Of a DNA stretch of 64,000 nt, positions 721 to 64,000 are shown in pieces. A program made the position numbers and the translations under genes. This DNA comes from Auricularia sp. M13 (taxonomy: Eukaryota > Basidiomycota > Agaricomycetes > Auriculariales > Auriculariaceae). The notes below the pieces were generated by a model. The model saw only the letters and a program-made list of their open reading frames with translations, had not been told where the DNA came from and ran no database searches. Within the stretch, counting starts at the first letter, position 1. The number at the start of each line of letters is the position of its first letter. The stretch covers positions 682,001 through 746,000 of the forward strand of contig CM073196.1 in NCBI GenBank assembly GCA_037042915.1. The letters are read 5' to 3'.

Positions 721-727
721 TATAAAA
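721..727 (+). promoter_or_regulatory. TATA-like box of the AspRS-DUF2156 gene
   Basis: TATAAAA lies only 20 bp before the ATG at 747. A TATA-directed start 25-40 bp downstream would fall at or beyond that ATG, so the in-frame ATGs at 780 or 798 may be the ones used. Confidence 0.45.
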
Positions 728-746
728 CCCTTCTAGGACGTTCTCC

Positions 747-7041: not shown

Positions 7042-7479
7042 ACATCGCATCCAAGACATCTGAACTGAACGAACGGATAACACACTGTATCTTATCCAGG
7101 CATGGGTTTTCGTTGCTATATCATTAGACGACCTGGGCCCGTGCGCGGCGGCAGGTCTGTTTGCACGAATTGCTTGTTCTTGTTCGCTGTCTCCCTGTTT
7201 TCAGGGTGCCACAGTGGTCGCGTTGAGCACTTAACTTCATAGGCGGCCTCAACGGAACTACCTTCCTTCCCTCTTCCTTCCTCCGGGAGTTGCATCCTTA
7301 CCCGTGAAAGCACAACGAGTCCGTCGCGCTGTTTCGGTGTGTGTGTGCTTCATGGGCGGGCAACCCTAAGCGCTCACACCTCATGTTTAATTTCCATAGG
7401 TAACGCCACGAAAGTTTAAGCCAAATTCATCGATTGCGAGCACCAGACATTTTCTCATTCGCATTCGCATTCGCATCCG
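7042..7479. other. Intergenic region
   Basis: No gene seen. A small ATTCGC hexamer repeat (about 3 copies) sits at 7457-7475, immediately before the ATG of the next gene. Confidence 0.6.
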
Positions 7480-28173: not shown

Positions 28174-30507
28174 ATGCCAGGCTATGGATATTCGTTCGTC
28201 GACGAGCCGGTTTTCACAATCTTGTCGAACTATTTCGACCCAGAATTGTTCTCCAGGCTTCCAGCAGAGATCCTTGGGATTATATTCAAGTGGGCTACTG
28301 CCTGCTGCGAGGAGTCGGACCGAGTCGTCGATGAACAGCGCGCTTTGCAACCATTCAGATGTGCCGCCGTGTGCAAGCAATGGCGATCTGCTGCTCTTGC
28401 GACGCCGTTGCTCTGGACGTACATTGCTGCCCCAAGATCTATCACTGGACCGGATACCGCTGAGCCCTGGCGCTACCGCGCCGAACGATGCACCGCTCTG
28501 TCCGGCTGTCCACTCGACATCAGCGTCGAGATCGGGGTAGACCGTCATTACGGGGATATCCTGGACCTGGTTCTTTTCTAATACTTGCGCTGGAGGTCGC
28601 TAAGCATTTACGCCGGCGTATGGTGCGATGCGCTTGTGGAGCCTGAGGGAGGCCATGCTGGCTTTACGGACACCGACGCCAAGGGGGGGGCGGAAGCAAA
28701 ATGACGGCATGGGGTCGGTAACCTCTGCAAGCTGCAGAGGCTGAGGGTATCCATCCTATATCCGCGGATATACTTCCTATGACCGCGGATATACTTCCGC
28801 GTGTTCCGCTTTTGATAGATCCGATCAGCGCTGTCGGAGAGAGCAAGTGTTATTGTGGCCAGTCCAAACCGAAGGGACCGGGAGTTCCCGATCCCCATTG
28901 TAGACAACCCTCCGGAACAGTGAATCGTGGATTGCGCCACCAGTTCCCAGCCAAACGCTCCCATTTCTACGTCAAACTGCTTCCTTTATTTTTCGGATTC
29001 AGAATATGAAGAAATTCTAGAGTCTGTAAACCCAATCTCTAAGCCGTTGCCCGTCCGGATGAGAGCTGAGAATGGCATTCTGAGGCTCCAAACTAATAGG
29101 AAAGACACATGTACATGTCATATCATATTCGGAGTGCTTATATTGACGAAATTGCGCCTTTCGAGAGTTTTGGTGCGTGGGTGAGAGTTGGCCGGCAGAC
29201 TTGATTCGGCCATAGAATTCCGAGGACGCGTCGGGGTGAGGTTTTGGGACCTAGAATAGATAGGCCATGCAGATACAAGCAATTCTAGGTATATATGAGG
29301 ACGGAAACTCAAGCGTGGGACTTATTATAAGATGCGGGAGACCCGTCTGCAGGAAGTTGCCAAAACCGTTTACATCCGATTGAATGGCGTTTGGAGTGGC
29401 CAGTTATTGTCAAGTTACTGCTTAGTTGCTGCACATTTGCTGCACACAGAGAGCCTCAAAACTTCATGAAGTGTTGCATTACAGCTCTCAGTCAATATCA
29501 GCATGCAAACATGTAGTCCACTGGGTCTACAACGCACCGGACCGGCCTCCGGCTCCGCCGGAGCCTGGGGTCGGCAACCTCTGCAGCGCAAGCTCGGAGG
29601 ACCCATCCATAGTAACGTGATGTACCGGATTTTGCCGGCTGCCCCCCCTTGACCGACGCCATTGCTAGAGAAAATCGTAATCGTCTTTTCAAGGCACCAT
29701 GAATACGACTTCCCTAATGACTCTGCTAACTACCTACCGCATGCTCCCAGATTGCGCCATGCGCATTTCGAAAAGGTGCCTATCGCGTTCGACCCGCACC
29801 GCCCGGATCTGCTCCCGGCGAGCATCGTCCACATAAATCATCACCCCCCGCGGATTGGCCAGGCTGCGCAGTGACCTCGCATCCTTCGCGTCGATAGAAG
29901 TCCTTACGCTGTACTGGGACGGCGTTCTGAGCGAAGAGGACGATCACCTCCCCATTCCTATTCCGAGCCTGAAGACCCTCGTCGTCCAGAAGTCGCCGGA
30001 ATGGACAGCAGAGAGCTGCGGCTGGGGCTCAGGCCCCGAAGCGCTTTTCCTTGCCCCGATCATAGATCTCCTGCAAGTGCCGAACTTGGCCGAACTTCGG
30101 GTCGACGTCGAGTACCTGCCTGACATGGAGAGCTTTATCGTCGGGCGATGCGCGCAGACGCTCCGGTCTCTCCGACTCAACCACGGCACCCTCGAAGCCA
30201 GCAGCGCACTCACGCTATCCTCCTGCACAATGCTCGTAGAGCTCTCCTGAGGACTGCAAGTTCTCGCCCGAATTCCTGGATGCGCTGCGCCAGTGCGCAA
30301 GTTGGCCGCATTTGCAGCGCGTTGTGTTGCGAGATTTGTGGGTATGCCAACTTCGACAACTGCTGCTGTTGCTTTGCGAGCGCTATCCAGCCGATGACCC
30401 GGATCGCGAGCCTCCCGTGCTCGAACTCGAATGGTTCGATGAGGAGTTGGACGGATGCTACACGCCCGCGTCACTTGCATCCTTCCTCGACGAATACGAA
30501 GAATGAG
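28174..30507 (+). pseudogene. F-box/LRR gene, interrupted by a transposon
   Basis: The start MPGYGYSFVDEPVF is followed by an F-box (FSRLPAEILGIIFKWATACC, then FRCAAVCKQWRSAALATPLL). The frame meets a TAA after DILDLVLF at about 28580, though homologous sequence (YLRWRSLSIYAGVWCDALV) continues in the same frame. At 28680 a hAT-type element interrupts it. The remainder resumes at about 29652 with IVIVFSRHHEYDF-like DNA and LRR-like segments (LASFASIEVLTLYWDGVL, FLAPIIDLLQVPNLAELRV, CAQTLRSLRLNHGTLE). It ends near SLASFLDEYEE at 30506. At least one stop, one insertion and frame changes make it non-functional. A duplicate of the segment after the insertion lies at 49487-49977. Confidence 0.7.
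28680..29651. mobile_element. hAT-type non-autonomous element, 972 bp
   Basis: The 8-bp target duplication ACCGACGC lies at 28672-28679 and 29652-29659. The ends read CAAGGGGGGGGCGGAAGCAA (left) and CAAGGGGGGGCAGCCGGCAA (right, reverse complement), imperfect TIRs of about 27 bp that begin with the YARNG pattern. The paralogous copy at about 49487 has the uninterrupted site, showing precise insertion. No transposase frame is seen. Inside lie a direct 23-bp duplication (about 28761-28805) and a repeated GGGGTCGGYAACCTCTGCA near both ends. Confidence 0.75.
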
Positions 30508-43929: not shown

Positions 43930-44925
43930 CGTACTCGACTGTCAGGTGCGCGGATAGTGGTGGAGCGGATCAATGTGAATATCGGAGATTCAAACCGTGC
44001 GACGGTGCCAATTGCGTTGTTTTGCAACGAAATCGAACAGTATTACCTCCCTCAATGGCGACGAGAATGACTGACAGTAGCGCGCCCGACTCTTTACGCG
44101 CGGACGGAGGGTCCATGATTTTTTCACGACTTTAGGCTCAGTATTAACGTTGAAGCGCAAAAATTCACAAGGCACTGATTCGGGCTACACCGATTCTGTC
44201 CTGTGCGAGATCGATCTCAACGACCTGTTGGGTAGTAAGAGGTGACCTGGTGTAAGATGCACATTCCGAGATTGAACGAAGCTCGCCCTTTGAAAAGCCC
44301 ACAGCCAGCTCGCCCTTTCTAGTGATATATTCCGCGCACTGCGTCCCCAGCTACTTCGAGAGAGACAACTACACATGCGGGAATGACCCTTATATTCCTC
44401 ACTGGTCATAATGGACCCTTGTACCGTCCGCAGCACTACATCCGTCTCTCCTTCGTTCTCGATGGTAAATCTGAGGACTCTAGAGACAAATTAAAGCTTT
44501 TCTTCGTCATTGAACAACCCAAAACCTAGATGTGCATAAATCATGTTGTGGCGCGACCTGTTGTGCACGCGACCTAAACAAAACGGGGCTGAGGCAGTGC
44601 GTTGCCCGGCCCCCTTGGGCGTCGCCAGTCCGAAATGAGGCCGGTGCTGTCCCCGCCTTGCTCATCCTTGCTTTCCTCCCCTCTGCACGCCTGGGCTGAG
44701 GGCCGACCCCGCGCTGCGAGCCTGCGCTGACCCAGGCCGCCCCCTGATCAGACGTGTCTCGGACCGCGCGCCCGTGCTTGCCGATCCTGTAGCATACTTA
44801 GGCGTCTAGTACCGTTGCAGTCCAATCTTGCCTGACTGGTCCGGTTCCCATTGGAATCCTGGTTATTACAGCGCAACCTAGCGCAGTAGCAACGCACTCT
44901 CCCTCCCCCGCCTTCGATCCCTTTT
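43930..44925. other. Divergent intergenic region
   Basis: Upstream of the F-box gene (minus) and the exonuclease-like gene (plus). No recognisable product. Confidence 0.5.
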
Positions 44926-46132
44926 ATGATGTTCGCTCCGAGCCTGGTCACGACGGCGTCCGCGGTGGACGACGCGCTGGCTGCCATAGCATGCTCGCCG
45001 TATCTCTATCTTGACTGCGAGGGCCATCGGCTAGGTTGCATCGGCGGCGCGCTTTCACTGCTCTCAGTCGGCACAAGCAACGCGCGCATCTTCCTCTTCG
45101 ACGCCATCGCATTGCGCGCGATCGGCCAGCTGCAGCGGGTGCTGCACGCGGTGGCCAGCAGCGAGAGGATTACATACGTCTGGGACGGCCGCAAGGACTA
45201 TTCTGAGCTCTGGCACGGCCACGCTGTCCGTCTCCGCGCCGGGCGCATACTCGACCTGCAAATCGCCGACGTTGGCCGAAGGGCAGGCGCGCAGCCCGGC
45301 AAGCCCGGGGTCCACCAGCTCGGGAGCCTCAAGGGCGTCCTGCGCGAGCATGGCATTCGCGGCCACTCTCCTTCAGGTAAGCCCAGCCCAGTCAAAGCCG
45401 CAGGTCCTGCAGCCATGTTGAGCGATATCGATTGCAGAACCTGCCCGGCACGATGAATGGATGACACGCCCGCTGCCAGAGGATCTCGTGTCGTACGCAG
45501 CGCGCGACATCATCATCCTCGCCCTCGCCCGCGAGCACTTCTCGCGCTGCGGCTATCTGGACGACATGAACGCGCTGCTCGCCCAGAGCGCCCGCTATAT
45601 CACGCTGCACGAGCGCTTTCGCCCCGCGCCGGAGGATGCGTTCCAGGGCTCATGCCTACTCCCGCCCGACATCCTGCACGATCCTCCTGCGGGCGCAGCA
45701 AGGCTCGAGTGCATGGGCTGCAGGCGCAGCCTCGGGGTAACGAATTTCGCGCACGCGCAGTTCGGAGCCGGCGTCCGGTTGTGCTTGATTTGCACCACAC
45801 TCGTCCAGCGGGGCAAGGCTGCGTTGCCCTCTCCACCGCCGGTCAAGCACAGGAGGACGCGGTCCAGGCAGAAGATCCAGCTTAAGCCCGAGCAAGTCGA
45901 GCAGCTGCAGGCATACGCGGCGGGGACGGCGACGGCGAGAGCCTGGGTAACCTATGGACCGCCGCACACATGGCACGTGCAGCTGCACGTGAACCCGCGT
46001 CTGCCGCCACCACACGTTGGTGTTACGTCTGTGCAGATGCCGATAACCCAGTCCTGCGGCATCATCCAGCTGGACCGCGAGAAGACCGAGGCGTGGAGAA
46101 ATTATGTGTGCAACACGCTTGTAGGTTTGTAG
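44926..46132 (+). CDS. DEDDy 3'-5' exonuclease-like protein with Cys-pair tail
   Basis: Exons 44926-45376 and 45438-46132 give 381 residues. DEDD exonuclease signature: YLYLDCEGHRLG (Asp-x-Glu), TYVWDGRKDYSELWHGHAVR with the next Asp, and DLVSYAARDIIIL (YxxxD, so DEDDy type, as in WRN/Rrp6 relatives). A treble-clef-like element, LECMGCRRSLG then LCLICTTLV, follows the nuclease fold. The C-terminal 100 residues are not recognised. The substrate (RNA or DNA) is unknown. The degenerate paralog at 7480-8793 shares the whole architecture. ATG 44929 is an equally possible start. Confidence 0.75.
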
Positions 46133-49006: not shown

Positions 49007-49486
49007 ATGCGTACCGGCTGGAGACTTTGGGCTGTCTCGAGTTACAGGCATGTAGGATATCGAGCAGCTTATCTTGTGACTGCGTTCAATTGATTTGAAG
49101 TTTGTGGCTAAGTTCATGAGGTCCAGAGATACGGCTGCCGCGCAGCTCCGTCCTTGCTACCGTTGTGTTGACTGAGAAAGTGGGACAAATCGCATCGAGC
49201 GGTGGCTCATTGAAGAGGCCGCTGGGGTGGCGTCCAACGAAACATGAGCCTACTATCCTTCAATTGTTCCGACTCGGGTATAAATCCGCGTCAGGCTTCC
49301 CCAACCCAGGTGAAATTGCAAACATCTCCCCCCACTGTCGCCCTCCGACTCCATGGCACGCGATCAGGCACGTCCAGACGCCGCGCGGTTCAACGATCGC
49401 GAGCTATGTGCACCTCACGCCACCCGATGCCTCAGCAGGAATACTTGTCAACTTCTAGTCGAGGGAGATATGCTTGGGTCTACGGA
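49007..49486. other. Intergenic region
   Basis: Between the DUF6593 gene and the F-box/LRR fragment. No gene recognised. Confidence 0.5.
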
Positions 49487-49977
49487 CACCGACGCCATTG
49501 CTAGAGAAGATCGTAATCGTCTTTTCAAGATACCATGAATACGACTTCCCCAATGACTCTGCCAACTACCTACCGCATGCTCCCAGATTGCGCCATGCGC
49601 ATTTCGAAAACGTTCCTATCGCGTTCGACCCGCACCGCCCGGACTTTCTCCCGGCGAGCATCGTCGGCAGGGCTCCCCATTACTATTACGAGCCTGAAGA
49701 CCCTCGTCGTCCAGAAGTCACAATGGATAGCAGAGGGCTGCGGCTGGTGCTCCAGGCTGGTTCCAGCCCCGAAGGTCTGTCGCTTGCGCAGATTTTAGAT
49801 CTCCTGCAAGTGCTGAATATGACCGAACTTCAAGTTGACGTCGTAGACAGCAGGCGGCTGCGGCTGGAGATCTGGAGACTCGGTGCCGAGGCGCTTTCGC
49901 TGACCCCGATTCTGGATGTGCGGCAAGTGTCGAATATGACCACGCTTGATGTCGAAGGCTGTGGGGCCATCGACTGA
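49487..49977 (+). pseudogene. Duplicated F-box/LRR fragment with the empty insertion site
   Basis: By eye this matches the segment after the transposon in the 28174-30507 pseudogene at roughly 95% over the first 190 bp (49487-49675 against 29652-29833), then diverges with indels. It reads IVIVFSRYHEYDFPNDSANY and two degenerate repeats ending in LLQVLNMTELQV and VRQVSNMTTLDV. The junction ACACCGACGCCATTGCTAG is uninterrupted here. No F-box is attached, so it is a truncated duplicate. Confidence 0.65.
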
Positions 49978-50261: not shown

Positions 50262-50325
50262 GGGTGGTCGCGGCACGAGACCGGCGGAGTTGCAACCGCG
50301 CTTCGCCAGGACATTTAAAGCCCAG
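50262..50325 (+). promoter_or_regulatory. Array promoter block, unit A
   Basis: A conserved block of about 64-75 bp seen before all four array genes. It contains GTGGTCGCGG, GACCGGCGGAGTT and ends ACATTTAAAGCCCAG. The TTTAAA box (about 50313) lies about 70 bp before the ATG at 50385. Confidence 0.7.
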
Positions 50326-50384
50326 CAGGTGGTTGTCGCTACTCTCCCATTTCCTCCCACAACCACGAGTCACGCTCTGCGACC

Positions 50385-52435
50385 ATGGAGGACTTCTTCG
50401 CGTGCAGCAACAACGCGAACTCGATAACACCACCGCTAAACGTACGTCCGCACTGTCGCGCCTCCGGATGGCACCGGCCACGGTGGTCGTCGTCGCGCGC
50501 GCAACGTGAGCTCACCAATGTGCAGGGTGATGGCGACGCGGCGTATATTCGCGCTGCGTGGCAACACATCGACGAACATTTCGGAGGCCAGACCATCCTC
50601 TTCAACCCATTCGATTTCAGCTTGACGGGCGAGACGACACCAGGCTTATCGGCTGGCTCAACCGTCAGTACCCCAACATCTCTCGAGCAGATCGAAGAAG
50701 CACGCAGCGATGGCGGCGATGGTCTGCAGCCTGATATGGCGCCAGCACTTGCCGACGACCAGTCCGAGGCGGGCGATGAGAACACAACTGAAGTGTCGAT
50801 GCCAGAGCTGGTAAGTCATGTCCACAATGCTCAGATACGTATGTTTTTGACGCGAGCAGATGCAGGAGGCTGACGTGATACCGGAGACCCCCAGCCCAGA
50901 GGCGACTGGGCGCGATCCCAGCTCGGCGGCCTCCATCGAGCAGCAATTACCTCCAGAGCAAGTCGCGCGCCCCTCTTTGATAGAACCGCAGCAGGGGAAG
51001 AGCACGAAGGCGGCCAAGGTCGTCGAGTTCTCTGGATCGGCAGTACTTGTCGAGCGGTCATCGTCTGCAACGACTGTTGTGGCTCAGGCGACGAAAGCAA
51101 GCAACGGGCGCAAACGGCGGGCGGAGGAGCAGGACGAAGTGTTGCCTGACTCGGTGAGTCCAGCAGCGTCTGAGGCGTTCAGAACGGATGCTGAATGAAA
51201 TTGCAGAGTATCAAAAGGCAGCGCTTTGCGGCAGGGTCCAGCGTCGCAGGTCCCTCGGCAGATGGACTCGCGGCAGGTCACTCGACAGCTCTCGTTCGCA
51301 CAGCACCTCTCGCCATGTCTGGAAACCCGTATGCCAGTGGCAGCGCCCTTGAGCCGTTCCCGGGAATGCCGCCAGCGCTCCATCCCGGGATGCACTTGGA
51401 CTCTGCGGACGAGAGTTCGCCCGCACTTGCATCTGCAGCATTTGTGAGTTGATTATGTAGTCTTGGAATGCAGTTTGACTTACCCCGTCACCAACCGGAA
51501 CAGCTGGCGCAGGCGGGGCCGTCGACAGGCGGACGAACACATGATCAGCGTGGTCAGGAGCAGGTAAGTGCATGAGGGACATGTACCTAGTCCGCGGGCA
51601 TTTGCTGACAGTCATCTTGCAGACTTCTGCCGCGCAGGCTGATGGGCAACGCGCCCAAAAACAGAACAACACAATAACTCGCCTCAACCGGGCGTTCAAG
51701 AAGCTGATAGAGGAACGGTCCGGGCAACTGAAAGCGGAGGCGAAGGCCATTATCGATCTCGAAAATGCACCAGCATCCGCGCTGCCCGCTCCCAAGACGC
51801 TATCCGACGACGACAAAGAGCGCATTGGGGAGCTTGCGCGGGGAGGCACGGCACGTGCCATCGCTGCGAACGCGGCAGGATACGTGACCTGCCAGGAGTG
51901 CAAGAATGAATACGGGCTGGACGATGAGCTCGTAATCAACAAGCAGTCGGCGCTGCTGCGGCACTCGACAGAGTACCATTCCAGCGCGGCGTGCTCAGCC
52001 TGCGGCATGCCCGTCGCAGGGCGCGACACCAAGGCGTTCCGCAGACACCGCGCAGTCTGCGCCGTATTCCACGCGCTGGTAAAGAGCGGCCGCCATTGGG
52101 ATTGGCTGCTGGAGTACGGGCTGGTCCGGGCGGACGTGCAGTCGATGGGCAACGAGTTCTTTAACCGGGATGAAAGGCTCGCTGCCAAGGGCGCAGACGA
52201 CAGCATCGAATCTCTCCGCAAGGTGATGAAGTACGGCGAGATCAAGAAGCTGAGGAAGAGCCTCAAGCTCGCGCCGGAGGAGGAGACGGATGCCGAGGAC
52301 GGCGAGCAGGACGAGACGGAGGGCGAGGAGGACGAGGCAGTTGCCTGGCCATCCAAGCTGCATGGGCACCAAGCGTGCAACGATGACCAGGGAAGCTCTA
52401 CAGGCGGCACTGGGACATCCGTCGCGCAGGCTTAG
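50385..52435 (+). CDS. Array gene A: unknown nuclear-type protein with double zinc-finger-like module
   Basis: Exons 50385-50441, 50511-50810, 50860-51153, 51207-51443, 51504-51563 and 51623-52435 give 586 residues, with every intron in phase 0. The short first exon encodes MEDFFACSNNANSITPPLN. A segment with AYIRAAWQHIDEHFGGQ and FNPFDF leads into an acidic, Ser/Glu-rich middle. GRKRRAEE (exon 3) and KRQR (exon 4) form a split basic motif, probably nuclear. The last exon carries a helical stretch (ITRLNRAFKKLIEERSGQLK) and, at about residues 406-466, C-x2-C-x20-H-x4-H then C-x2-C-x14-H-x3-C. After it, HWDWLLEYGLVRADVQSMGN and an acidic tail. No family recognised. A DNA- or protein-binding role is inference. 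Confidence 0.7.
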
Positions 52436-52968
52436 GCGCTCCAGCTCCCGATATACACGGATCGTACTTCTTTGTCGACCCAGACAATTCTACGTCGACG
52501 TTGACTCAACGTATGAGAGCGCCGGGGATGCAAGGCATTGTGGATGGTCAATGATGGTCAAGAAGACGAGGAACATGGTCAGGACAATGTAGGATAGCAG
52601 GTCATGGACGAGGTATTGCGTTGTTACGAGTTTGAGTGCGATGCCCAAAACCAAGCGACAGCCTGTGAATAGAGCGAATCAAGAGCAATAGTCAGCCAAA
52701 TGGTACAACATGACACTCATCGTGAAAGTATCTCGCTATCGCGTGCCGTGCAGTGACAGAGCTAAGAGAACTGGGGTCAAAGGAAGTGGTTGGGAGCGGA
52801 ATCAGAGCGGTAACTAACGGCCGTTGGCACGGGGATAAAGGATTCATCGCCGATGCCTTCACACGCATGAAGAGGTTTCATGTTCCTGGGGTTCAATTGA
52901 CAACGGGTTTGAGCAGTATATATATGAGATCTGAGTACTGGAAGTAATTCTCATGCCAGTGGCCTTTA
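52436..52968. other. 3' flank of unit A with conserved downstream block
   Basis: Contains sequence shared after all four array genes: a block near 52590-52665 (GTTGTTACGAGTTTGAG) and GTCAAAGGA followed by the palindrome AACGGCCGTT at 52816-52825, then GGCACGGGGATAAAGG. Confidence 0.6.
52816..52825. promoter_or_regulatory. Conserved palindrome AACGGCCGTT, unit A
   Basis: A perfect 10-bp palindrome in a conserved context downstream of each array gene: 52816 (A), 56455 (B), 59842 (C) and 63486 (D). In A, C and D it is followed by GGCACGG and an AT-rich TATAA/GATAAA-like stretch. Function unknown. Confidence 0.45.
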
Positions 52969-53684
52969 CTGCCATCGGCGTTCCCGAAGGCGCGACCGGA
53001 AAATCGCCGAAAAACGCGTGCGCGACCCGCCGCAACCGTCCGCGTCACCGCCGGCGCATTTCTCATGCTACACCTTCCAGACTCTGGGGCTAGGGTTGCG
53101 CAGAGGATAGCCTCTATCCACGCGCAGGATCAGGGCCAATGTCGACTCCATAATTTTCGACGCAATCTGAGCATCCATTCTCCCCTGTTGCTCCCCTGGC
53201 TCATCCGACGCACTTAGCTCAGGTCTGACACCGGTAGCACGTAGGTAGACCATGGCCATGGATTATGCAGTTTTTTTTAAGGATTATTCTATATGCCTGG
53301 GTCCTCAACGGCCGCTGTGAAATAGCATGTAAACAGGCTCGGCAGCGGCAACGTCTGAGCGCAACACACTGTGAAACGAGGGCTTGTAAAGATAGATCAT
53401 CCTACCACCGACCCTGTACATGAGTTGTGAGCGCTCCTCGCTCGATACTCGCGGCTCTGGACCAACGATGCCATGTGTGAGTGTAAATTAGCCATTCTAA
53501 TAAAGAGATCACACCAGCTCTAATCTTGCGCGTGCATAGCGGGCATCCTCTGCAAGACCTCATTCCCAGAGTGTGGAGGGTGCAGGATGAGAAATGCGCC
53601 GGCGGTGACGCGGACGGTCGCGGCGGGTCGCGCACGCGTTTTTCGGCGATTTTCCGGTCGCGCCTTCGGGAACGCCGATGGCAG
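52969..53684. mobile_element. TIR element with long inverted repeats, 716 bp
   Basis: The ends start CTGCCATCGGCGTTCCCGAA on both strands and stay nearly identical by eye for about 95 bp, then similar to about 190 bp. It is flanked by TA at 52967-52968 and 53685-53686. No transposase frame. It separates array units A and B and lies outside the conserved unit, so it probably inserted after the duplication. A TA duplication points to a Tc1/mariner-like origin. Confidence 0.75.
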
Positions 53685-53847
53685 TACATAGTTCTCTTCG
53701 AAACGCAGGAGTGCAGTGAAAGTCGCAAATTGAGCTCATATTGACGGAAGGGTCGCAACAGACTTCACAGTGGAGGACTGCGCCTCATTCATAACATCAG
53801 ACGCGCCCGGCAGGCAATCGAAATGATATTTGATTTTTTTCACAGTG

Positions 53848-53922
53848 CCACGGTGGTCGCGGGCACGCGGCACGAGACCGGCGGAGTTGCAACCGCGCTT
53901 CGCCAGGACATTTAAAGCCCAG
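53848..53922 (+). promoter_or_regulatory. Array promoter block, unit B
   Basis: GTGGTCGCGGGCACG, GACCGGCGGAGTTGCAACC and ACATTTAAAGCCCAG, nearly identical to unit A. It lies 60 bp before ATG 53982. Confidence 0.7.
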
Positions 53923-53981
53923 TAGGTGGTTGTCGTCGCTCTCCCATTTCCTCCCGCAACCACGAGTCACGCTCTGCGACG

Positions 53982-56026
53982 ATGGACGACTTCTTCGCGT
54001 GCAGCAACGACGCGAACTCGATACCACCACCGCCAAACGTACGTCCGCACTGTCGCGCCCCCGTGTGGCACCGGCCACGGTGGTCGTCGTCGCGCGTGCA
54101 ACGCGAGCTGATCGATGTGCAGGGTGACGACGACGCGGCGTATATTCGCAACGCGTGGCAGCACTTCGACGAGCACTTCGGAGGTCAAGCTGTCCTCTTG
54201 AACGCCTTCGATTTCCATTCGACGGACGCGACGACGCCGGGTCTGACGGTTGACTCGGCCACGAGCACCCCATCAGCATGGGAGCAGACCGATGAAGCCC
54301 ACAGCAGTGACGAGGAAGACGCGCAGCCTGACGCGCCCCTGGCGAACGATGCGCCCGACCAGACGACGAATGACAACGAAAGCGTTAGCGACGAGGCAGA
54401 GCCAGAGCAGGCAAGTCGTCTCGTGGGAACTCACGCAGGGCTACTGCTAACGCGAGTAGACACAGACAATTCCAGAAGACCTGCGTTCAGACGTCGACGC
54501 AACTGGGAGCGATGCGTATCCTGACTCGGCGCCCATCCTCGAGCAGTCCTCACCGACGGAGAACGTCACGGCCCCATCGACAGCAACAGAGCGAGGGCGT
54601 TTCCAGTCGACGGCGGCGAACATTGACGAGGATGCTGGCTCGGCGCCGCCAATCGAGCAATCGTCGTCGACGACAGCTGCCGCACCCTCGACAAACGTCC
54701 GCGGGCGCAAGCGGCAGGCAGACAATGAGCAGGGAGAATCGTTGCATGGAGTGAGTCTAGCAGCGCCATGCCCATTCATACCAAATGCTGACTAGGATTG
54801 TAGGGCTCAAAGAGGCAACGATTCACAGTAGGAACGGGATCGGGATCGCAGGTGGCGACCTTCAGCGACGCAGCGCCCGAGAAAGACGGACTCGTTGGGC
54901 GGTCGACATCCGTCATCCACACGGCACCTCTCGTCGTGCTGAGCAACGCGTACGGTGATGGCAGCGCCGTTGCGTCGTTCCATGAGGCAACGGCGGCGTC
55001 GAACATGGGACTGCACGCACACCCCGCGCCGGGCTCGTTTCCACAGGCGATGGGTTATGCGGCGTCTGCGCAATTGGTGAGTGGACGATGTCCTCCTGGG
55101 TCACGACCTTGGCTGACCTCGACAACAGATGTCGCCGTTCAACGCAGCTGCACAGCAACCACTTCCGGGGCCGTCGACGGCCGGTCAACCAGAACATCTG
55201 CGCGGGCAGGAGGTATGCAAAACATTTACCACACGCACCTGGCTGTAAGCTGACCGCCGTGTTACAGATCTCCGCCGCGCAAGGTGATGGGCAACACGCC
55301 CAAAAAGATAGCAACACAACAACTCGTCTGAACAGAGCTTTCAAAGCGCTGTTCAAGGAACGGTCCGCGCAGCTGGCGGAGGTCGCCCAGAGCATCATTG
55401 ATCTGGACGACGGGCCAGCATCCGAGCTTCCCGCGCCGCAGACGTTCTCAGACGAGGACAAAGAGTGGGTGGGGGCGCATGCGCAGAAGTGCCCCGCACG
55501 CGCCATCCCTGCGAACGCGGCAGGCTATGTGACCTGCGAGAAGTGCCAGCGGGATTACGGGCTGTCCGATGAGCTCGTCATCAACAAGCAGTCGGCGCTG
55601 CTGCGCCACGCGACGGAGTACCACTCCAACGCGGCATGCTCGGCGTGCGGCCTGCCCGTCGCGGGGCGCGACACGAAGGCGTACCGCAGGCACCGCGCAG
55701 TGTGCCCGGTATTCCACGCGCTGGTGAAGAGCTGCCGCTACTGGGAGTGGCTGCTCGAGTACGGGCTCGTCCGAGCGGACGTGAACTCGATGGGCAACGA
55801 GTTTTTCACTCGGGACGAAAGGCTTGCAGCCATTGCCAAGCGCCCAGCCAAAAGAATCGAGTCTCTGCGCAAGGTACTAAAGTACGGCGAGGTCAAGAAG
55901 CTGCGGAAGAGCCTCAAGCTCGCGCCGGAGGTGGAGACGGATGTGGAGGACGTTGATGCGGAGGAGGCGGAGGACGAGGAGGACGAAGAGCCTGTGGCCG
56001 GGCCGTCTAGACTACCAGAGCACTAA
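53982..56026 (+). CDS. Array gene B: paralog of array gene A
   Basis: Exons 53982-54038, 54108-54410, 54460-54750, 54804-55076, 55129-55212 and 55268-56026 give 588 residues, all phase 0. Start MDDFFACSNDANSIPPPPN, then AYIRNAWQHFDEHFGGQ and LNAFDFHSTDATTPGLT. The split basic motif is GRKRQAD / GSKRQR. The last exon carries CEKC with H-x4-H and CSAC with H-x3-C at the same spacing as A, then YWEWLLEYGLVRADVNSMGN, an acidic stretch and the end VAGPSRLPEH. Intron 2 starts GCAAGT, so it needs GC-AG splicing, where gene A has GTAAGT. It is closest to A by eye. Function unknown. Confidence 0.7.
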
Positions 56027-56757
56027 GCGGGCGACGACGACCAGAGCAGCTATGCAGGCGGCGCTGTACCACCCGCGGCGCTGGCGCTGGCGCCCCCGAT
56101 GCACAAGGATCGTATTTCTTTGTTGGCTCAGATTGTTCCCTCGTAGACGTCGACGCGGATGGCTGGCTTGTATGAACACTGGAGATTTAGGATAGGGTGG
56201 AATGTAGATGAGGCACGGAAATGGACAGCAATGTGGGATAGCAAAGCATAGACGAGGTACTGCGTTGTTACGAGTTTGAGCGCGCTGCCCAAAAACCAAG
56301 CGGCAGCCTGTGAACAGAACAAGTCAAGAGCATAGGCCAGAGTTAACATGAGTTGTACTACTCATCGGGGAGGTAGCTTGGTACTCAGCGCGGCTTGGAA
56401 GAGACAGCTGGGGTGTCAAAGGAAGTGAGCAGGCGCGGGATCGCAGCGGTAACTAACGGCCGTTGACGCGGGGTTAAAAGGCCAATCCCCGTTGTCTTCG
56501 GCAGCGAAAAAAAAAATTCAGCGCTACGCAGTACTCGCAGGTACAAGAGAAATGATGAGATGGTACGCTGAACTTAATTCTGAAGCAGGTGGCAATCAAA
56601 TTGCTGCGCATCGAATGCGCGAAAGTCATCGACATTTGGGGTTTATTTTTGCCTAGAGACGTGTGCAAGTGATCTCAAGAGTGTTCAGAACTCAAAAAAT
56701 AGTGCATATTCAGTGCATCATGGTCTATACAGTTATCAGGAAAAAAAAATCGACAAG
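56027..56757. other. Spacer between units B and C
   Basis: Holds the conserved downstream block of unit B (palindrome at 56455-56464) and oligo-A tracts near 56509 and 56741. No gene recognised. Confidence 0.5.
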
Positions 56758-56832
56758 TGCCACAGTGGTCGCGGGCACGTGGCACGAGACCGGCGGAGTT
56801 CAGACCGCGCTTCACAGCACATTTAAAGCCCA
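56758..56832 (+). promoter_or_regulatory. Array promoter block, unit C
   Basis: GCCACAGTGGTCGCGGGCAC, then CGGCGGAGTTCAGACCGCGC and ACATTTAAAGCCCAG. It lies 70 bp before ATG 56902. Confidence 0.7.
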
Positions 56833-56901
56833 GCGCGTGCCCGCTCCTGCTCTCCCACATCCCACCACCATCCCGAGTTCCCCCATAGACTTTCACCGAC
56901 G

Positions 56902-59591
56902 ATGAACGGCTTGTTCGACGACGCGAACTCGAGCAACCTGCTTACACCACCACTGGCAGCTCTGGCAGACGTACGTCCTCAATCACGACTGCGGGTGGCA
57001 CCAGTGGTCGTCGTCGTCGCGTAGCACGAGCTGACTGACGTGCACTGGCAGAACGACGACGACTTTTGGAAAGAGCTTGAGCGAGAGGTCTTTGGCGGCA
57101 AGGTGGACCCACTGAACGCGTTCGACTTCGGTTCGCTAGACACTGCGGCGCTGGGGCTGACTGCCGGGCCAACAACCACCGCCACTGGCGCGCAAGTCGT
57201 CGAGAACACTGAACACGACGACACACAGCTCGAAGCGAAACCCGCTGCCCAGGAGCTCGATGCGCCACGCCGAGGGGAGACGCCGGTCGAGCAGCCCGCG
57301 CGCGATGAGGTGCGTTCCCACTGGCAGTTTGGAACCGGCCTTTGCTGACGCGACTGGAAGACGGTGGTCAAGGCGGGCCCGAGTTCGACGGCGAACACCA
57401 GCAACGCGCAGTTCAACGAACCCGCCGAGCCAGTGCAGCAAGCCAAGGTCGCCGCCGAGGCCGTCAGAGGCCACAAGCACCGGCCGGACGCGCACGAGGC
57501 GACGACAACTGCGCGATCGAGCAGGCAGGCGAGCATGGACAACGCAATGGCCAGCGCCTCAAGCGCGCCGCCCGTCGAGTACGCCATGCCGCTGCGGGCA
57601 GCCAAGGAAGACACCAAGCCAGTCCGAGGCCGCAAGCGCCGGCCAGACGAAGATGTAGAGTATGAGGTACGTCCATAGCCAGCAAGTTAGCGCGTGCCCA
57701 TATTGACGCTCATCACAGACTTTGAAGCGCAAGCGACGGACCGCGCCCAACGCAATTGTCGAAAGTGGGGCGCAGCGGTCGGTGTACCAGCATTCAGTAA
57801 ATGTAAAGCTTTGCCCGAGAGCCGGCCGCCTGCTGACACCCGCGAAGGACGTCTACGGGACGCCAGCAATGCTGGGCGCGACGAGCCAAGCTGCGGTCGG
57901 GTCACTTCAATTGGCGGGAGCAGCTACAGGCTATGCGCCGTACCAATTCGCGGTTCGTGGGCCTGCCATTGAGCTGACTGCATGCTGATAATTGCGAAGG
58001 GTGCATATGGCACGCCGGCTATGTTCGCCGAGACAGGCGGGGACGACACGGCACCGTTCGCCTTTCCGTATGCGCCGGCATCCCTCGCTGGCGCGCACAC
58101 ATTCCTCGCGGACGGCACGGGCATTGCGTCTGGCAGCAACACAAGGGCAGCTGGTGTTGCGATGCCTGCCCCAACATACGTGCATTATGCAGGAGGAACG
58201 GTGCCGTTTCCAGGCGCATACGAGCTAGCTGGTGTCCGCAACGCGTCGGCCTTCCACGGTGCGGCGTATGTGGCGCCCGGGTTCGGCGGCATGCACACGC
58301 CTGGCAGCGGGCACCTGCCGCTCCGTGTACCGACCCAGTATGAGCTCGCGGACGGTCATCAGACGCACGGCGCGGAAAGCATCGGGCCCTCAGCGTCAGG
58401 ATATGTTGCCCGTCCTGTACAGCTGCCTGTACCTGCACAGCTGGTGAGTACAGGATCTGTTCGTGTTGGAAGGAAGTGACTGACTTACAATAATGCCAGC
58501 CGTCGGATGCTAGCGACTCGGGGGTCGGCGAGGCCCACGGGCAGGCCGGACCATCATCTGGGCACATGACGCAGCGTCAGCGCATCGGAAAGAAGGTACG
58601 CATCGAATGTCGCTTACTTTATGTCGCGCACAATCTGACAGTGCTCTTGCAGACGTCCGCCGCGCCGGGAAATGGGCCTCGCGCCCAGAAACACAACACA
58701 AAAATAACTCGCCCCAACCAAGCTTACGCGAAGCTTCGGGGCACATACAAGGACCAGCTCAGGCAGGAGGCCAGGCAGATCCTCGAACTGCCAACTGGCC
58801 CTGCACCAGTATCCGCGCTGCCTGCGCTGAAGATCCTGGCTCCAGAGCACAAAGATCTCGTCAAGGTGCTCGCCCAGAAGACAACGCAGCGCGACATCAA
58901 GCAGGAAGACCTGGAAGATTACACCGTGTGCACGCGGTGTAAGACGGACTTCGATCTCGACGGCGAGCTCGTGCTCAACAATGACCTGGCGATCCAGCGC
59001 CACATAAAGGAGTACCATTCAGACGCGGCGTGCTCCGCCTGTGGCATGCCAGTCGCCGCACGCGACGTCGAGGCGTACCGCCGGCACCGGGCTGAATGCC
59101 CAGTCTTCTGCGCGCTCGTCAAGCGCGAATGGTACTGGGACTGGATGGTGCAGAACGGGCTGGTCAGGGCGGTCATCGACGACATGAACGCCGAGTTCTT
59201 CGTGGAGAGCGAGAAGAACACGGCGAAGCGTGCGGTCGACGGCGAGGGCACTCTGAAGACGATATTGGAAGATGGCGAGATCAAGAAGCTCTTGGAGCGC
59301 CTTCCCAATATCCTCAAGCGCATGGGGCTCGACAAGGTGCAGCCAGCTGAGGCGCAGCGGGAGACAGCGACTGCCGGTCCTGTGGCTGGACCGTCAAGGC
59401 TGCCGGCGCACACAGCTCCAATCGCCGGCCCGTCCAGTCTGCAGGGGAGCAAATGGAGCGACGAAGACGAGGGCGAATTTGCTATCCCGTCGGCCAGCGC
59501 ACAGGGATCGCATTTCGTCTACGGGGTAGACGGCTCTCTCATCGAGGAAGACGCGAATGGCTGGCCCATACGGACGCATAGAATGCAGTAG
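56902..59591 (+). CDS. Array gene C: longest paralog, one extra exon
   Basis: Exons 56902-56970, 57031-57309, 57361-57666, 57719-57952, 58000-58443, 58500-58595 and 58653-59591 give 788 residues, all phase 0. Start MNGLFDDANSSNLLTPPL; LNAFDFGSLDTAALGLT; split basic motif GRKRRPDED / LKRKRRTAP. Exons 4 and 5 hold a Gly/Ala/Pro-rich region in which KDVYGTPAML and KGAYGTPAMF recur, suggesting an internal duplication that added the extra exon. The zinc-finger-like module (CTRC, RHIKEYH, CSACGMPVAARD, RRHRAEC) and VAGPSRLPAH are present, with a further 50-residue tail. Intron 1 contains an in-frame TAG, so it must be spliced in this copy. Confidence 0.68.
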
Positions 59592-61051
59592 AGGAATGAG
59601 GATGGCATGGCATGGATAATGGATGGCGGAGTGTAGGATAGCAGGGTGTGAACGAGATATTTCGGTGTTATGAGTTTGAGCGCGAGATCCAAGGCCAATT
59701 GGCAGCCTGGGACTTTTAGAAAACGCAAGAGCTAATGTGCAGGTGCAGTACGGTACTCATCGTCAAGGTATCTTGCTGACGGGTGCTGCGCCTCGAACGC
59801 GGGTTGGTGTCAAAGGACAACGAGCGGGATCGGAGCGGCAAAACGGCCGTTGGCACGGGTATAACGGCTTTAAGCCTGACAATGTTGCGGCTTTCCGAAA
59901 ATTCAACTCGCGGATTTAGACAAAGCCTCACCTGTAGCTGAAGATTAAATTCCCAGATCGTGCTCATGTCGTTTGTCTGGACGGTGGGAACTCGGAACGC
60001 CCACGTGTGTTGCGAAAGTTACATTCAAGCCGAATGCCCAATACCGAATGCTCGCAAAATCGCGCGGACGTCTATTAGATAGTGTACGACCTCAAGTATT
60101 GTCCATGTATTATACTCTGTAAGTGGCAACTGGATGTTCATTGTGCTCTGAAGAGCTCGGAGAGACGCCGCCTTCGTCACTCTGGATCGACCTCAGGAGC
60201 CTTTATTGTCTTTCCCCCCGTATTTATGCCGCCCCGAACCTAATATCAATCTCCCAAATATCGCCTATATGCACCCCACGCCATGCCACCTCGCTGCGAT
60301 GGACGATCTCGTCCAATTAAATCGCATCGCAGTTCCCAGCCGTGTCCAGATCTTTCCCCAACGTCCCACTGGCACGCCGCGGTGTTGCATACAGATCCGG
60401 TGTGCAATACGCGCCCACCCCGGCCGTCTGAAAAGCTCCCCCGAGTCGTCGGGTGAGCCCACACCCGTCACATGCGGGGCGGGGAGAGAGGGGAGAGCCA
60501 GAACATCTGCAGCCTGCATTCTCTCTTCAAGAATTTGGAGCGCAGGGAAAGATTTTCGCATGACATCGACCTGGGTCCCATTCCTCTACGGTGCCACCGC
60601 GAAGAGGTCCTTCAGTCTGCCGCCGTCCGACGTTCCTCTACCACGGAGGACGTCGCCTCATTCATCGGCGACGCCAACGCCGGTAGCGTATTCAGCACAA
60701 CACCCCAAGACTGGATCGAGCAGTGACGGCAGCTGTTCAACACGCCGTTCATTCGACGATTCAGCGGCCTGCTCATTTCCCGCTACGTCGGCGCCAGCGG
60801 GAGTCCGACCGACTGCGCTTCACGCGCCATGTGGTGAGAACGCCCGGAGGCCCGTGGTCACGACGACTCCCAGATGTTGACGATAATACTGGTTGCCATT
60901 GGCCAGAAGGTCACCCAGGCCGGAGGATCTCCATTCGCCTGGAACCGTCCTCAGAGTCAAGCGACCTGAAACCCGAGAATACCGGGAACAAAACGTCCTC
61001 ATTTATCCCATCACACCACACGTTCGAAACAAAAAATATTTTCACCCCCAG
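59592..61051. other. Spacer between units C and D, with possible small gene
   Basis: Begins with the conserved downstream block (palindrome 59842-59851). From about 59880 to 60300 it matches 63540-64000 after unit D, including CCTTTATTGTCT, a TATTTATG box and CTATATGCACCCCACGCCA. The ATG at 60299 (MDDLVQLNRIAVPS) and the frame 60472-60726 (ending SVFSTTPQDWIEQ) may belong to a small unknown gene just after that box. I could not build a model. Confidence 0.35.
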
Positions 61052-61120
61052 CGCCACAGTGGTCGCGCGGCACGTGGCGTGACGCGACCGGCGGAGTTCA
61101 GACCGCGCTTTAAAGCCCAG
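61052..61120 (+). promoter_or_regulatory. Array promoter block, unit D (shortened)
   Basis: Same block as the other units (GCCACAGTGGTCGCG, CCGGCGGAGTTCAGACCGCG). About 10 bp are missing between CGCGCTT and TAAAGCCCAG, so the box reads CTTTAAAGCC. It lies 78 bp before ATG 61198. Confidence 0.65.
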
Positions 61121-61197
61121 CAGCCGCTCCTGCTCTCCCATCTCCCATCTCCCATCTCTCCCCGCCACCACCACCACCACCCTACTCTTATTCCACG

Positions 61198-63208
61198 ATG
61201 GAAAATTTCTTCCCACTCGCATGCACCAACGCCAACGACTCGCTACCAGTAGATGTACGTTCTGCCAAACGGGTGGCACCGGCGGTCGTTGATGACGCTG
61301 CAGGACGATGGGTACCTTCGCGACGGTTGGGCCCGGCTCGACGAGCTGGCTGGCCGCGCGCGCGTCCCGCTCGACCTCTTCGACTTTGGCTCGACGGGCG
61401 ATGCGGACTCGACGCCGGCGCTGACGGCTGGTTCTATCGCCGCCAGCACACCGCCAGGCGACGAGGACGAGGATTTCGACGAGCAGGACGAGCAGCGGAG
61501 TGACGCGTTCTTTGACGAGGAGGAGAGTGACGCGTTATTCGAAGACGAGGAGAGTGACGCGCTGTTCGAAGACGGCGAGGACGCGGAAGATGAGCACGCC
61601 GACAACGAGTGGCCGGAAGAGCGCGACGACGAGCCAGAGATCAGTCACGCGGAGAGCGATCAGGATGCAAGGGGGTTCACCCCGCCGCAGGTATGTCCCC
61701 ACATAACGCAGGACTGAACCGCTACTGACGCGATTACATCAAGGTCGCGGAGGAAAGCCCCAGCGCAGACACTGGAGCGTCCCGTGTCTCCTCCATCCTG
61801 GCGCCGTCTGTCGGGCTGTCAGCGCATACTGTCGAGCAGTCAGTGCGGCCCGATCAAGCTTCAGGCTCGTCGACAAATGCACCTCGAGGCCGCAAGAGAC
61901 GCGCAGACCAAGACCAGGACGACGCGCTGACCGCTGTGCGTGCGCAATTGTGACCGCAGACGTTCCGTTTCATTCTGACCGCAGGCGCAGGGCGCCAAGA
62001 GGCAGCGGGTCGCGCAGATGGCACCTGGGGCTCCGTATTTCCAGCAACGCGCCGGCGTCTAGAGTCGCGCCGCTCCCAGGAATGGCGCCAGCAGCCGACC
62101 TGGGTATACCGTTCGACCCCGCAGTTGGAATGCCTATGCTGCCAGTAGGATATGCCGACAATATCTTCGGCAACTTGCAGCCTCGGGCGTCCGAAGACGC
62201 TGCTGTTCTTCAGCCGGCACCAGTCGCTGAACAGATGGTCAGTGGATATTGTAAGCTCTAAACGCGAGCTTGGCTAACCTCAATGCCAGGCATCTCAACC
62301 CAGCGAGGACGGCGATGATCAGGACGATCAGGAGGAAGCGGAGCCGCCGGCCATGATAACGCGGGCATGGCGCAGGAAGAAAAACGTACGCACCTCAGGG
62401 GATGGTCTGTTCGGTGTCTGGCCACAGACTGACGCTCCAGTTGCAGTCTTCCACTGCGCCTGGCAATGGGCAACCCGCCCAAAAACATAACAACCAGAGA
62501 ACTCGTCCATACCGGGCGTACGAAGCGCTGCGGCGCGCACATGCCGACGCGCTCAAAGCGGAGGCAAGGCGTATCCTCGAACTACCGGAGAATACGCCAG
62601 CGTCGGCGCTGCCTGCGCCCAAGACGCTATCAGAGGACCTGAAGGACGAATTGAAGGATATCGGTCCAGGCACGACGGGCCGTGTCATCGCAAACCCGAC
62701 GGGCTATATCGTCTGCGCCATCTGCAAGGAAGACTTTGATCTCGACCGCGAGCTCGTGATCAACGAGGACTGGGCCATCGAGCGGCACATCAAAGAGTAC
62801 CACTCGGACGCCGCGTGCTCGGCCTGCGGGATGCCCGTCGCTGCGCGCGACGTCAAGGCCTTCCGCAGGCACCGGGCCGTCTGCCCCGTCTGGCACGCCC
62901 TGGTGAAGAGCGGGTGGCACTGGGCGTGGATGGTGGAGCACGGTCTCGTCCGCGCCGACGTCGACGAGATGAACGCGGAATTCTTTGTCAAGCGCGAGAA
63001 GGACGCGGCGCGGCGCGCGGACGATACCCTTGGCTGTCTCGAGGAGATAATGAAAGGCGGGGAGATCGCGGAGCTGACGAATATCCTCGATAAGTTCCTC
63101 AAGCGTCTGGGTCTCGATGGCGTGCAGCGGGCGGCTGCGAAGCAGGAGACGGCGGACGGCGGCCCCGTAGCTGGGCCGTCGCGGCATGCGGACAGCAGGC
63201 CCGTATGA
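61198..63208 (+). CDS. Array gene D: paralog with an apparent frameshift
   Basis: Exons 61198-61254, 61304-61690, 61744-61935, about 61985-62237, 62290-62385 and 62447-63208. Start MENFFPLACTNANDSLPVD; LDLFDFGST; a very acidic stretch with tandem EESDALFED repeats; split basic motif GRKRRADQ / AKRQRV. In exon 4 the KRQR frame meets TAG after QQRAGV, while the rest (APLPGMAPAADLGIPF) is open in the next frame, so one indel separates it from a complete gene, or the assembly is wrong there. The zinc-finger-like module is intact (CAIC, RHIKEYH, CSACGMPVAARD, RRHRAVC) and the end is VAGPSRHADSRPV. Closest to C by eye. Confidence 0.58.
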
Positions 63209-64000
63209 GCGCGGGGAATGCAGGAAAAGATGGAATGTGGGGATGATGGGGACAATGGACAGCGCTGTGTAGGATAGCAGGGTATGGACGAGCTGTTTCG
63301 TTGTTACGATTTTGAGCGCGAGACCCAAGACCATTCGGCAGCCTGTGAACTGAAGGAATCAAAGCAGGAGCCGGAGGAGCGTTTGCGTCGCACTCAGCGT
63401 TAGGGGATCTTGCTGCTCGGTGCGCTGCCTCGAACGGGGAGTGTCAAAGGACAAGCAGTGGAATCGGAGCGGTAAAAACGGTAAAAACGGCCGTTGGCAC
63501 GGATATAACGGCTTCACATAAGCCTTACACAGTTTGCATCTTTACAACAATTCAACGCGCAGGTTTAGACAGAACCTCACGTGTATCAAAGCTTTATATT
63601 TGTCCCACTCTTATCATTGTAGTCATTTGGACTGCGGGAAGGCCCACCTGTGTTGCGAAAGCCACGTTCAGGCCCGGGCCTATACTCGATACTTGCGCGA
63701 TCGCGCGAACGAACGTCAAGCAGACGATGTACGACCTCAAAGTATTATCCGTAGTTTGTAATGCGCAAGTGGCAACCTGATGTCCTTTGTCTCCACGAGC
63801 GCTATGAATGGTCCGCCGCGCTCAAGCCGTCGTCGCCACACCGCGACCAGTGGCACCTCGCAAGCCTTTATTGTCTCTCCAGCCTATTTATGTTGAACTC
63901 CCGCGCCCAATCTCAATAATGCCGCACCGCGCCCAATCTCGGTTCTCGATTCTCGATCTCTCACACACAGTCTATATGCACCCCACGCCATTCCACCAGG
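63209..64000. other. 3' flank of unit D, window end
   Basis: The conserved downstream block with palindrome at 63486-63495, then about 450 bp similar to 59880-60300. It runs into a TATTTATG box and CTATATGCACCCCACGCCA at the last bases, so whatever follows at 60299 is probably repeated just past the window. Confidence 0.5.

Follow-up and report, generated by a model that had tools for sequence, protein, structure and literature searches.

A tandem array of four genes with a non-canonical Cys/His module in Auricularia sp. M13

A 64,000-nt stretch of the Auricularia sp. M13 genome (hereafter the window, with coordinates counted from its first letter) carries four similar genes in a row whose products end in a Cys/His module of no recognized family, which raises the question of what these proteins do and whether all copies still do it. 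The answer that we favor, with modest confidence, is that the genes arose by tandem duplication and encode nuclear regulators of the transcription-factor type, which would be co-regulated and carry a non-canonical two-zinc module.

Organization of the array

Hand-made splice models placed four paralogous genes, A to D, head to tail at 50385-63208, all on the + strand (as are the features of the units given below) and with a common exon order, in agreement with the four-copy array proposed in the initial annotation. The frame was open from ATG to stop in A, B and C (5, 5 and 6 introns, respectively, 16/16 in phase 0). Gene A (50385..52435; exons 50385-50441, 50526-50810, 50860-51153, 51207-51443, 51504-51563 and 51623-52435) has 6 exons with GT..AG introns and encodes 581 aa. 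Gene B (53982..56026; exons 53982-54038, 54123-54410, 54460-54750, 54804-55076, 55129-55212 and 55268-56026) has 6 exons, encodes 583 aa and needs a GC donor at intron 2 (54411); its last-exon protein sequence is 73% identical to that of A. Gene C (56902..59591; exons 56902-56970, 57052-57309, 57361-57666, 57719-57952, 58000-58443, 58500-58595 and 58653-59591) has 7 exons, owing to one extra intron (57953-57999), and encodes 781 aa. Gene D (61198..63208; 6 exons, 61198-61254, 61304-61690, 61744-61935, 61985-62237, 62290-62385 and 62447-63208) follows the same layout with 5 introns, the first 3 in phase 0, after which the frame breaks in exon 4; splicing of a 28-nt intron (62035-62062) would restore it.

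A to D are four paralogous units of common descent, promoter and 3' flank included. This copying of whole units, as had been claimed, was confirmed by alignments and extended to intron 1, which is 90% identical between A (50442..50525) and B (54039-54122), the shared stretch being still visible in C and D. The 3' flank contains a conserved block with AACGGCCGTTG (52580..52860 in A, and 56220-56490, 59610-59870 and 63230-63510 in B, C and D; 64-74% identity over the six pairs). An RNA gene was considered for this block and rejected, because the window had no Rfam match at gathering score and no tRNA (search with the bacterial code), and RNAalifold of the four blocks yielded 39 pairs, 7 with double-sided changes, and a small covariation term (-1.25 kcal/mol). 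It is simpler to see the block as a 3' UTR or flanking regulatory DNA. The palindrome TAACGGCCGTTG of the 3' flank, with at most 2 mismatches, was found 10 times in the window versus 4.8 expected, a weak statistic that 3/100 shuffles reached.

A conserved Cys/His module in the last exon

The last exon of all four genes encodes C-x2-C-x20-H-x4-H-x4-C-x2-C-x14-H-x3-C, with the spacing of its two halves exactly as given in the initial annotation (51860..52168 in A, 55505..55813 in B, 58896..59207 in C and 62687..62992 in D). In the alignment of last exons 24 columns contained any Cys or His, and the eight that were invariant all belonged to the module (in A, C90, C93, H114, H119, C124, C127, H142 and C146, last-exon numbering). 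Finger 2 has an Arg-rich helix, R-D-x-x-A-x-R-R-H-R-A-x-C, in which only the x positions vary; W159, W161 and GLVRA are conserved on the C-terminal side of the fingers.

Adjacent classical C2H2 fingers are expected to be joined by a TGEKP-type linker. Such a linker was not found, the last His of finger 1 being separated from the first Cys of finger 2 by four residues, S-x-A-A, in all four copies, and none of the four had the classical spacing C-x2,4-C-x12-H-x3-5-H. Because the finger 1 loop has 20 residues and the linker only four, it is doubtful that the module forms two independent classical fingers.

Consistent with the earlier remark that no named family could be recognized, Pfam and NCBIfam gave nothing at any curated cut-off, PHROGs gave no family for the 2/4 last exons scanned, and PDB sequences gave no match above threshold. 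PF00096 was absent from Pfam matches at E up to 10 for the four last exons and modules, in a search whose HMMER filters drop most matches above ~0.1. Two zinc-ribbon families recurred below threshold, Zn_ribbon_4 (PF13717; best 20.1 bits, E 0.0006, copy A, versus a cut-off of 30.3) and Zn_ribbon_Nudix (PF14803; best 15.1 bits versus 25.6). They have a CxxC knuckle in common with the module, but the matches covered only 17-24 residues around one knuckle. Two scans of viral_contigs yielded 40 and 174 pattern matches and a scan of genome_contigs yielded 105, with none confirmed (by tblastn for the viral matches); these collections cover viruses and prokaryotes and are uninformative on other fungi. 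The family was not named in the papers listed by our literature searches, which is weak evidence of absence.

AlphaFold2 modeled the last exon with moderate confidence (mean pLDDT 66.5) and the module alone poorly (mean pLDDT 46.9), so zinc-coordinating geometry is unproven. The last-exon model had short strands at 87-89 and 103-105 followed by a helix at 108-118, and a further helix, downstream of the second CxxC, at 136-145 (block pLDDT 72-87 for these elements). Foldseek searches with this model returned 32 matches in PDB and 13 in BFVD at E up to 10, none of them at E up to 0.001, and we regard these as noise.

The module could instead be a zinc-stabilized protein- or RNA-interaction domain of a nuclear chromatin or RNA-processing cofactor that does not choose DNA sites. 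The four-residue linker, the long finger 1 loop and the conserved W159, W161 and GLVRA suggest one compact fold, and a helical stretch precedes the module (residues 21-70, block pLDDT 84-92), all of which would suit such a cofactor. However, the Arg-rich helix of finger 2 fits nucleic-acid contact, and the overall layout of the proteins, described below, also argues against this possibility, which we consider unlikely although it deserves to be taken seriously.

An acidic N-terminal part and a split basic motif

Exons 1-3 encode an acidic N-terminal part in each copy (pI 4.05-4.67; 36-59 acidic versus 8-22 basic residues) with a short FDF motif in 4/4. A bipartite basic motif lies over the exon 3/4 border and is split by intron 3, again in all four copies, as the initial annotation had noted. 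An acidic N-terminal part, a nuclear localization signal and a C-terminal Cys/His module together form a layout that is usual for transcription factors. These features support the nuclear-type layout suggested earlier, as far as this can be judged from sequence, and they are more readily accommodated by a regulator of the transcription-factor type than by a cofactor.

Coding constraint

The module is under purifying selection, with NG86 omega values of 0.12-0.44 over the six pairs (AB 0.21, AC 0.44, AD 0.33, BC 0.32, BD 0.28, CD 0.12; bootstrap upper bounds 0.23-0.76). The rest of the last exon was looser, with omega up to 0.80 before the module (B-C) and 0.73 after it (A-D). An absence of purifying selection had been set beforehand as counting against the proposal, and since purifying selection was seen in the last exon, this was not the case there. 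The locus had also been called fast-evolving. This holds for the middle exons, with A-B pN values of 0.38 for exon 3 and 0.35 for exon 4, and does not hold for the module or the promoter core.

A shared promoter core

A core of 62-70 bp precedes each gene: 50264..50325 in A (with TTTAAAGCCCAG at its end, 59 bp from the ATG; identity to B at 62/62 aligned bases), 53853..53922 in B (59 bp before the ATG), 56765..56833 in C (68 bp; 63/69 aligned bases identical to B) and 61059..61120 in D (77 bp; 56/58 aligned bases identical to C). Identity in the core was 88-100% in 6/6 pairs versus 41-66% at last-exon four-fold sites, which codon bias may affect (Fisher p 1.8e-7 to 2.4e-12). The core was chosen after its conservation had been seen, and it is incomplete in both A and D. 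After removal of the two words used for cutting it out, identity was 83-100% (p 1.8e-4 to 2.1e-8), and the unselected stretch from -150 to -1 gave 61-80% (p 1.2e-2 to 4.3e-6); in 40 random quadruples of 150-mers, mean pair identity was 0.41 and the maximum 0.58. The window had just 4 exact copies of GACCGGCGGAGTT, one per core. CCACNGTGG had 7 sites in 64 kb versus 0.94 expected, and 5/7 were in array promoters or intron 1, but these five are not independent because they descended from each other.

Some of the promoter identity could be due to gene conversion, most of all in the A-B pair, which differed in exon 1 by 4 non-synonymous changes and by 0 synonymous changes at 11.2 sites. From 50280 to 50559, every 40-base bin of the A-B 5' tract was 88-100% identical; identity was 47-50% upstream of this tract and fell off downstream of it. 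As the sole cause it was rejected, because between the pairs (A,B) and (C,D) the core was 88-91% identical while four-fold sites were at 41-48%; for A-B it is kept as a likely contributor. Diverged proteins behind a nearly identical promoter stretch suggest that the copies, which are presumably expressed, are switched on together.

Is copy D broken?

A one-interval search of exon 4 of D (GT..AG or GC donor, list of five; 24-140 nt; open frame after removal) found two frame-restoring intervals, the 28-nt one given above and one of 124 nt (62057-62180). Both are unlike the introns of the array, which have 47-84 nt (intron 4 of D has 52 nt). The frame break may be a true break, an assembly error or an ultrashort intron, and copy D may thus be broken.

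It is conceivable that the array consists of decaying duplicates, of which only some work and at least D is becoming a pseudogene, with promoters kept alike by recent gene conversion and not by selection. The frame break, the fast middle exons and the A-B tract could all be read in this way. However, the other three genes have reading frames that are open from end to end, and the contrast between core and four-fold sites persists between the pairs. In addition, last-exon changes polarized by A=B and tallied at codon positions 1, 2 and 3 were 17, 12 and 27 on the D branch and 23, 21 and 21 on the C branch (12, 8 and 19 were ambiguous), and by these counts the last exon of D is no less constrained than that of C. 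We therefore regard decay as improbable.

Possible function and relation to known systems

If the proteins are indeed duplicated regulators of the transcription-factor type, the acidic N-terminal part may be an activation region and the split basic motif a nuclear localization signal, and the Cys/His module would form a single compact unit with two bound zinc ions and make contact with DNA. One upstream factor would drive all four genes together via the shared core, although self-regulation through this core is possible. Finger 2 hardly changes between the pairs (A,B) and (C,D), but the presumed helix of finger 1 does, so the pairs may differ in target or partner even when co-expressed. Spacing and linker count against this reading, as they look unlike those of classical DNA-binding fingers, and so does the lack of any known DNA-binding domain above the Pfam cut-off or by fold. 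A bolder version, which we consider improbable, is that the compact C2H2-C2HC unit is a hitherto undescribed fungal two-zinc DNA-binding domain and that the products of the expanding array control the core shared by their own genes as a self-linked circuit, which would be why the core changes far less rapidly than the proteins.

According to a C2H2 survey of Basidiomycota (PMC12295980), only PF00096 matches with C-X2,4-C-X12-H-X3,4,5-H were kept, Agaricomycotina C2H2 genes show an acidic bias and several introns, and wood-decay species have some tandem duplication of these genes, with dispersed duplication predominant. The genes described here are similar in their Cys/His fingers, acidic bias, several introns and tandem duplication, but differ in the x20 of finger 1 and in finger 2, with x14 and a final Cys. 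The filter of this survey would drop the A-D family, because the spacing differs and PF00096 was not among the Pfam matches. In studies on mammals, local zinc-finger gene clusters are likewise attributed to tandem duplication (PMC2443715, PMC2604467); in contrast, the array has two non-canonical fingers per protein, a conserved module and no variation in finger number. Tandem duplication of zinc-finger regulators is known, and the unusual part is the module. If the module is a zinc-dependent DNA reader, such a domain would have been discarded by the spacing rule in at least one recent survey of mushroom-forming fungi. The well-kept core beside fast middle exons offers a ready test of how proteins of duplicated regulators diverge under one switch. 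Should the array prove to be no more than a local family expansion that includes a broken copy, it would be ordinary tandem duplication.

That a mobile element carries the gene or gave rise to it, with multiplication in place, is very unlikely: an element whose inverted ends measure 170 bp, with TA at either edge, does lie between A and B (52967-53686), but it has only ~720 bp, occurs once in the window and is outside the repeated unit, and no transposase family matched in the scanned parts of the array proteins.

At its right end, the array probably continues past the window edge (64000). The stretch 63953..63997 (+ strand) repeats 60246-60290, which is ~0.9 kb upstream of the D start codon (37/45 identical, E 1e-8), and therefore another unit, whole or partial, probably begins outside the window.

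Gene models and relations among the copies

The four-copy array described in the initial annotation is real and was well observed: splice models place four paralogous genes head to tail at 50.3–63.5 kb of the window, all on the + strand (A, 50385–52435; B, 53982–56026; C, 56902–59591; D, 61198–63208). C carries an extra intron relative to the other three. All 16 introns of A, B and C are in phase 0, as are the first three of D, after which exon 4 of D breaks the frame. A GC donor is used at intron 2 of B, and the predicted donor for intron 4 of D is GTCAGT at 62238, giving an intron of 52 nt. In exon 2 of D, a 27-bp tandem repeat (61487–61574; ~3 copies) extends the acidic stretch of this protein in frame. 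In the last exon, B, C and D are 73%, 43% and 51% identical to A at the protein level, and C and D are 58–60% identical to each other (tblastn); on these values the array falls into an (A,B) pair and a (C,D) pair. The sequence from 59560 (end of C) is repeated from 63195 (end of D), and 60246–60290, ~0.9 kb upstream of the D ATG, is repeated at 63953–63997, so another unit, whole or partial, probably starts past the window edge.

Conservation of non-coding sequence

The most informative new fact about the array is a well-kept promoter core, which in the alignment of A–D runs from GTGGTCGCG to TTTAAAGCCCAG and ends 59–77 bp upstream of each ATG. Its identity is 100% (AB), 90% (AC), 88% (AD), 91% (BC), 90% (BD) and 97% (CD), not counting gaps (8–9 columns absent from A close to the left end, and ~12 from D immediately 5' of TTTAAA), whereas last-exon four-fold sites give 66, 44, 42, 48, 41 and 44% identity in the same order (Fisher p 1.8e-7 to 2.4e-12). 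The end words are identical by choice, as they were used to delimit the core; without them, identity is 100, 88, 83, 88, 84 and 95% (p 1.8e-4 to 2.1e-8). The conservation also holds, with smaller figures, in unselected sequence: positions -150 to -1 are 80, 68, 61, 77, 74 and 74% identical, and the contrast with four-fold sites persists in all six pairs (p 1.2e-2 to 4.3e-6). For 40 random quadruples from the window, mean pair identity averaged 41% and reached 58% at most.

The conserved 3' flank of each unit is 64–74% identical among copies and is more conserved than four-fold sites in five of six pairs (p below 0.05), the exception being A-B (p 0.22). All four 3' flanks keep AACGGCCGTTG, which includes a 10-bp perfect palindrome (52816–52826, 56455–56465, 59842–59852 and 63486–63496). 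A and B are almost the same in sequence across the core, exon 1 and intron 1, with no synonymous change in exon 1; this pattern suggests either a further, recent exchange between the two copies or constraint acting on the DNA as such. Identity in introns 2–5 of this pair is 54–68%.

Protein layout and selection

Exons 1–3 encode an acidic region (pI 4.05–4.67) that starts with a short conserved stretch, followed by a region containing FDF in all four copies. A bipartite basic motif, also present in every copy, is divided by the junction of exons 3 and 4, with one half on each side. In the last exon a helical stretch precedes the Cys/His module, which has two finger-like halves. Among the 24 last-exon columns with Cys or His in any copy, eight are invariant, and these are exactly C-x2-C-x20-H-x4-H-x4-C-x2-C-x14-H-x3-C. 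Invariant tryptophans and GLVRA follow the module, so the domain probably reaches beyond the second finger. The AlphaFold2 model of the A last exon was moderate for residues 21–170 (block pLDDT 72–92; mean 66.5).

NG86 omega for the six pairs was 0.27–0.54 over the last exon (bootstrap upper bounds 0.38–0.74) and 0.12–0.44 over the module (0.23–0.76), and was higher in the last exon outside the module (up to 0.80 before and 0.73 after it); these values are rough because dS is 0.85–1.14 in every pair except A-B. The middle exons are looser still, with A-B pN of 0.38 and pS of 0.51 in exon 3, and 0.35 and 0.59 in exon 4. By changes per codon position, the last exon of D is as constrained as that of C, so the frame break in D would be recent, an assembly error or removed by splicing.

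Comparison with known families and proposed function

The initial annotation recognized no named family, and the genes are indeed unnamed as far as Pfam, PHROGs, NCBIfam, PDB and fold searches reach. In Pfam, the module gave only sub-threshold zinc-ribbon fragments, and the N-terminal parts gave no match for A, one sub-threshold match for B and none for C and D (scanned as exon 2 alone). Nothing convincing was found in PHROGs (two of the four last exons), NCBIfam (all four) or PDB sequences (D last exon and a four-module profile), and a fold search with the A model gave no match. A 2025 survey of C2H2 genes of Basidiomycota required PF00096 and x12 spacing, a filter that A–D would fail, so they would not be kept (PMC12295980). 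The survey reports that tandem duplicates occur in wood-decay species, although dispersed duplication prevails there (PMC12295980), and the array as such is therefore unsurprising; tandemly duplicated zinc-finger regulators are a known kind of array.

We infer that the products are probably regulators of transcription-factor type, presumably nuclear and capable of activation, and that the common promoter core probably brings about their co-expression. The compact module would bind two zinc ions and read nucleic acid, presumably DNA. The finger 1 helix differs between the pairs, KQSALLRH[SA]TEYH in (A,B) versus [NE]D[LW]AI[QE]RHIKEYH in (C,D), and finger 2 hardly varies; any difference in target between the pairs would therefore most likely lie in finger 1.

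Neighboring features

Between A and B lies a ~720 bp element (52967–53686) whose 170-bp ends form an inverted repeat (89% identity), with a TA at either edge; it looks like a TA-inserting MITE, and no second copy occurs within the window. Directly left of the array, 49501–49843 is a duplicate of 29665–30110, 20 kb off, with 94% identity across 165 bp and 79% across 174 bp. An F-box/LRR-like gene may be the source of both fragments, but the overlapping open frame 49459–49974 had no Pfam match. Introns in the window are short, and its gene content includes F-box/LRR-like genes (below Pfam cut-offs), a DyP-type peroxidase domain and a lysyl-tRNA synthetase; by these features the window is probably fungal. 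In two likely genes (7420–8793 and 44890–46132) the first part resembles a 3'-5' exonuclease (PF01612 scores of 26.4 and 19.0 bits against a cut-off of 23.6), and the part after it has CxxC pairs and matched nothing in Pfam at E up to 0.01. The DyP-type peroxidase N-terminal domain is at 21365–21937 on the minus strand (PF21105, E 3.9e-43). The lysyl-tRNA synthetase domain lies in two adjacent open frames (726–3592) that end with an LPG_synthase_C-like domain (PF09924, E 3.1e-10), a fusion known mainly from bacterial LysX.
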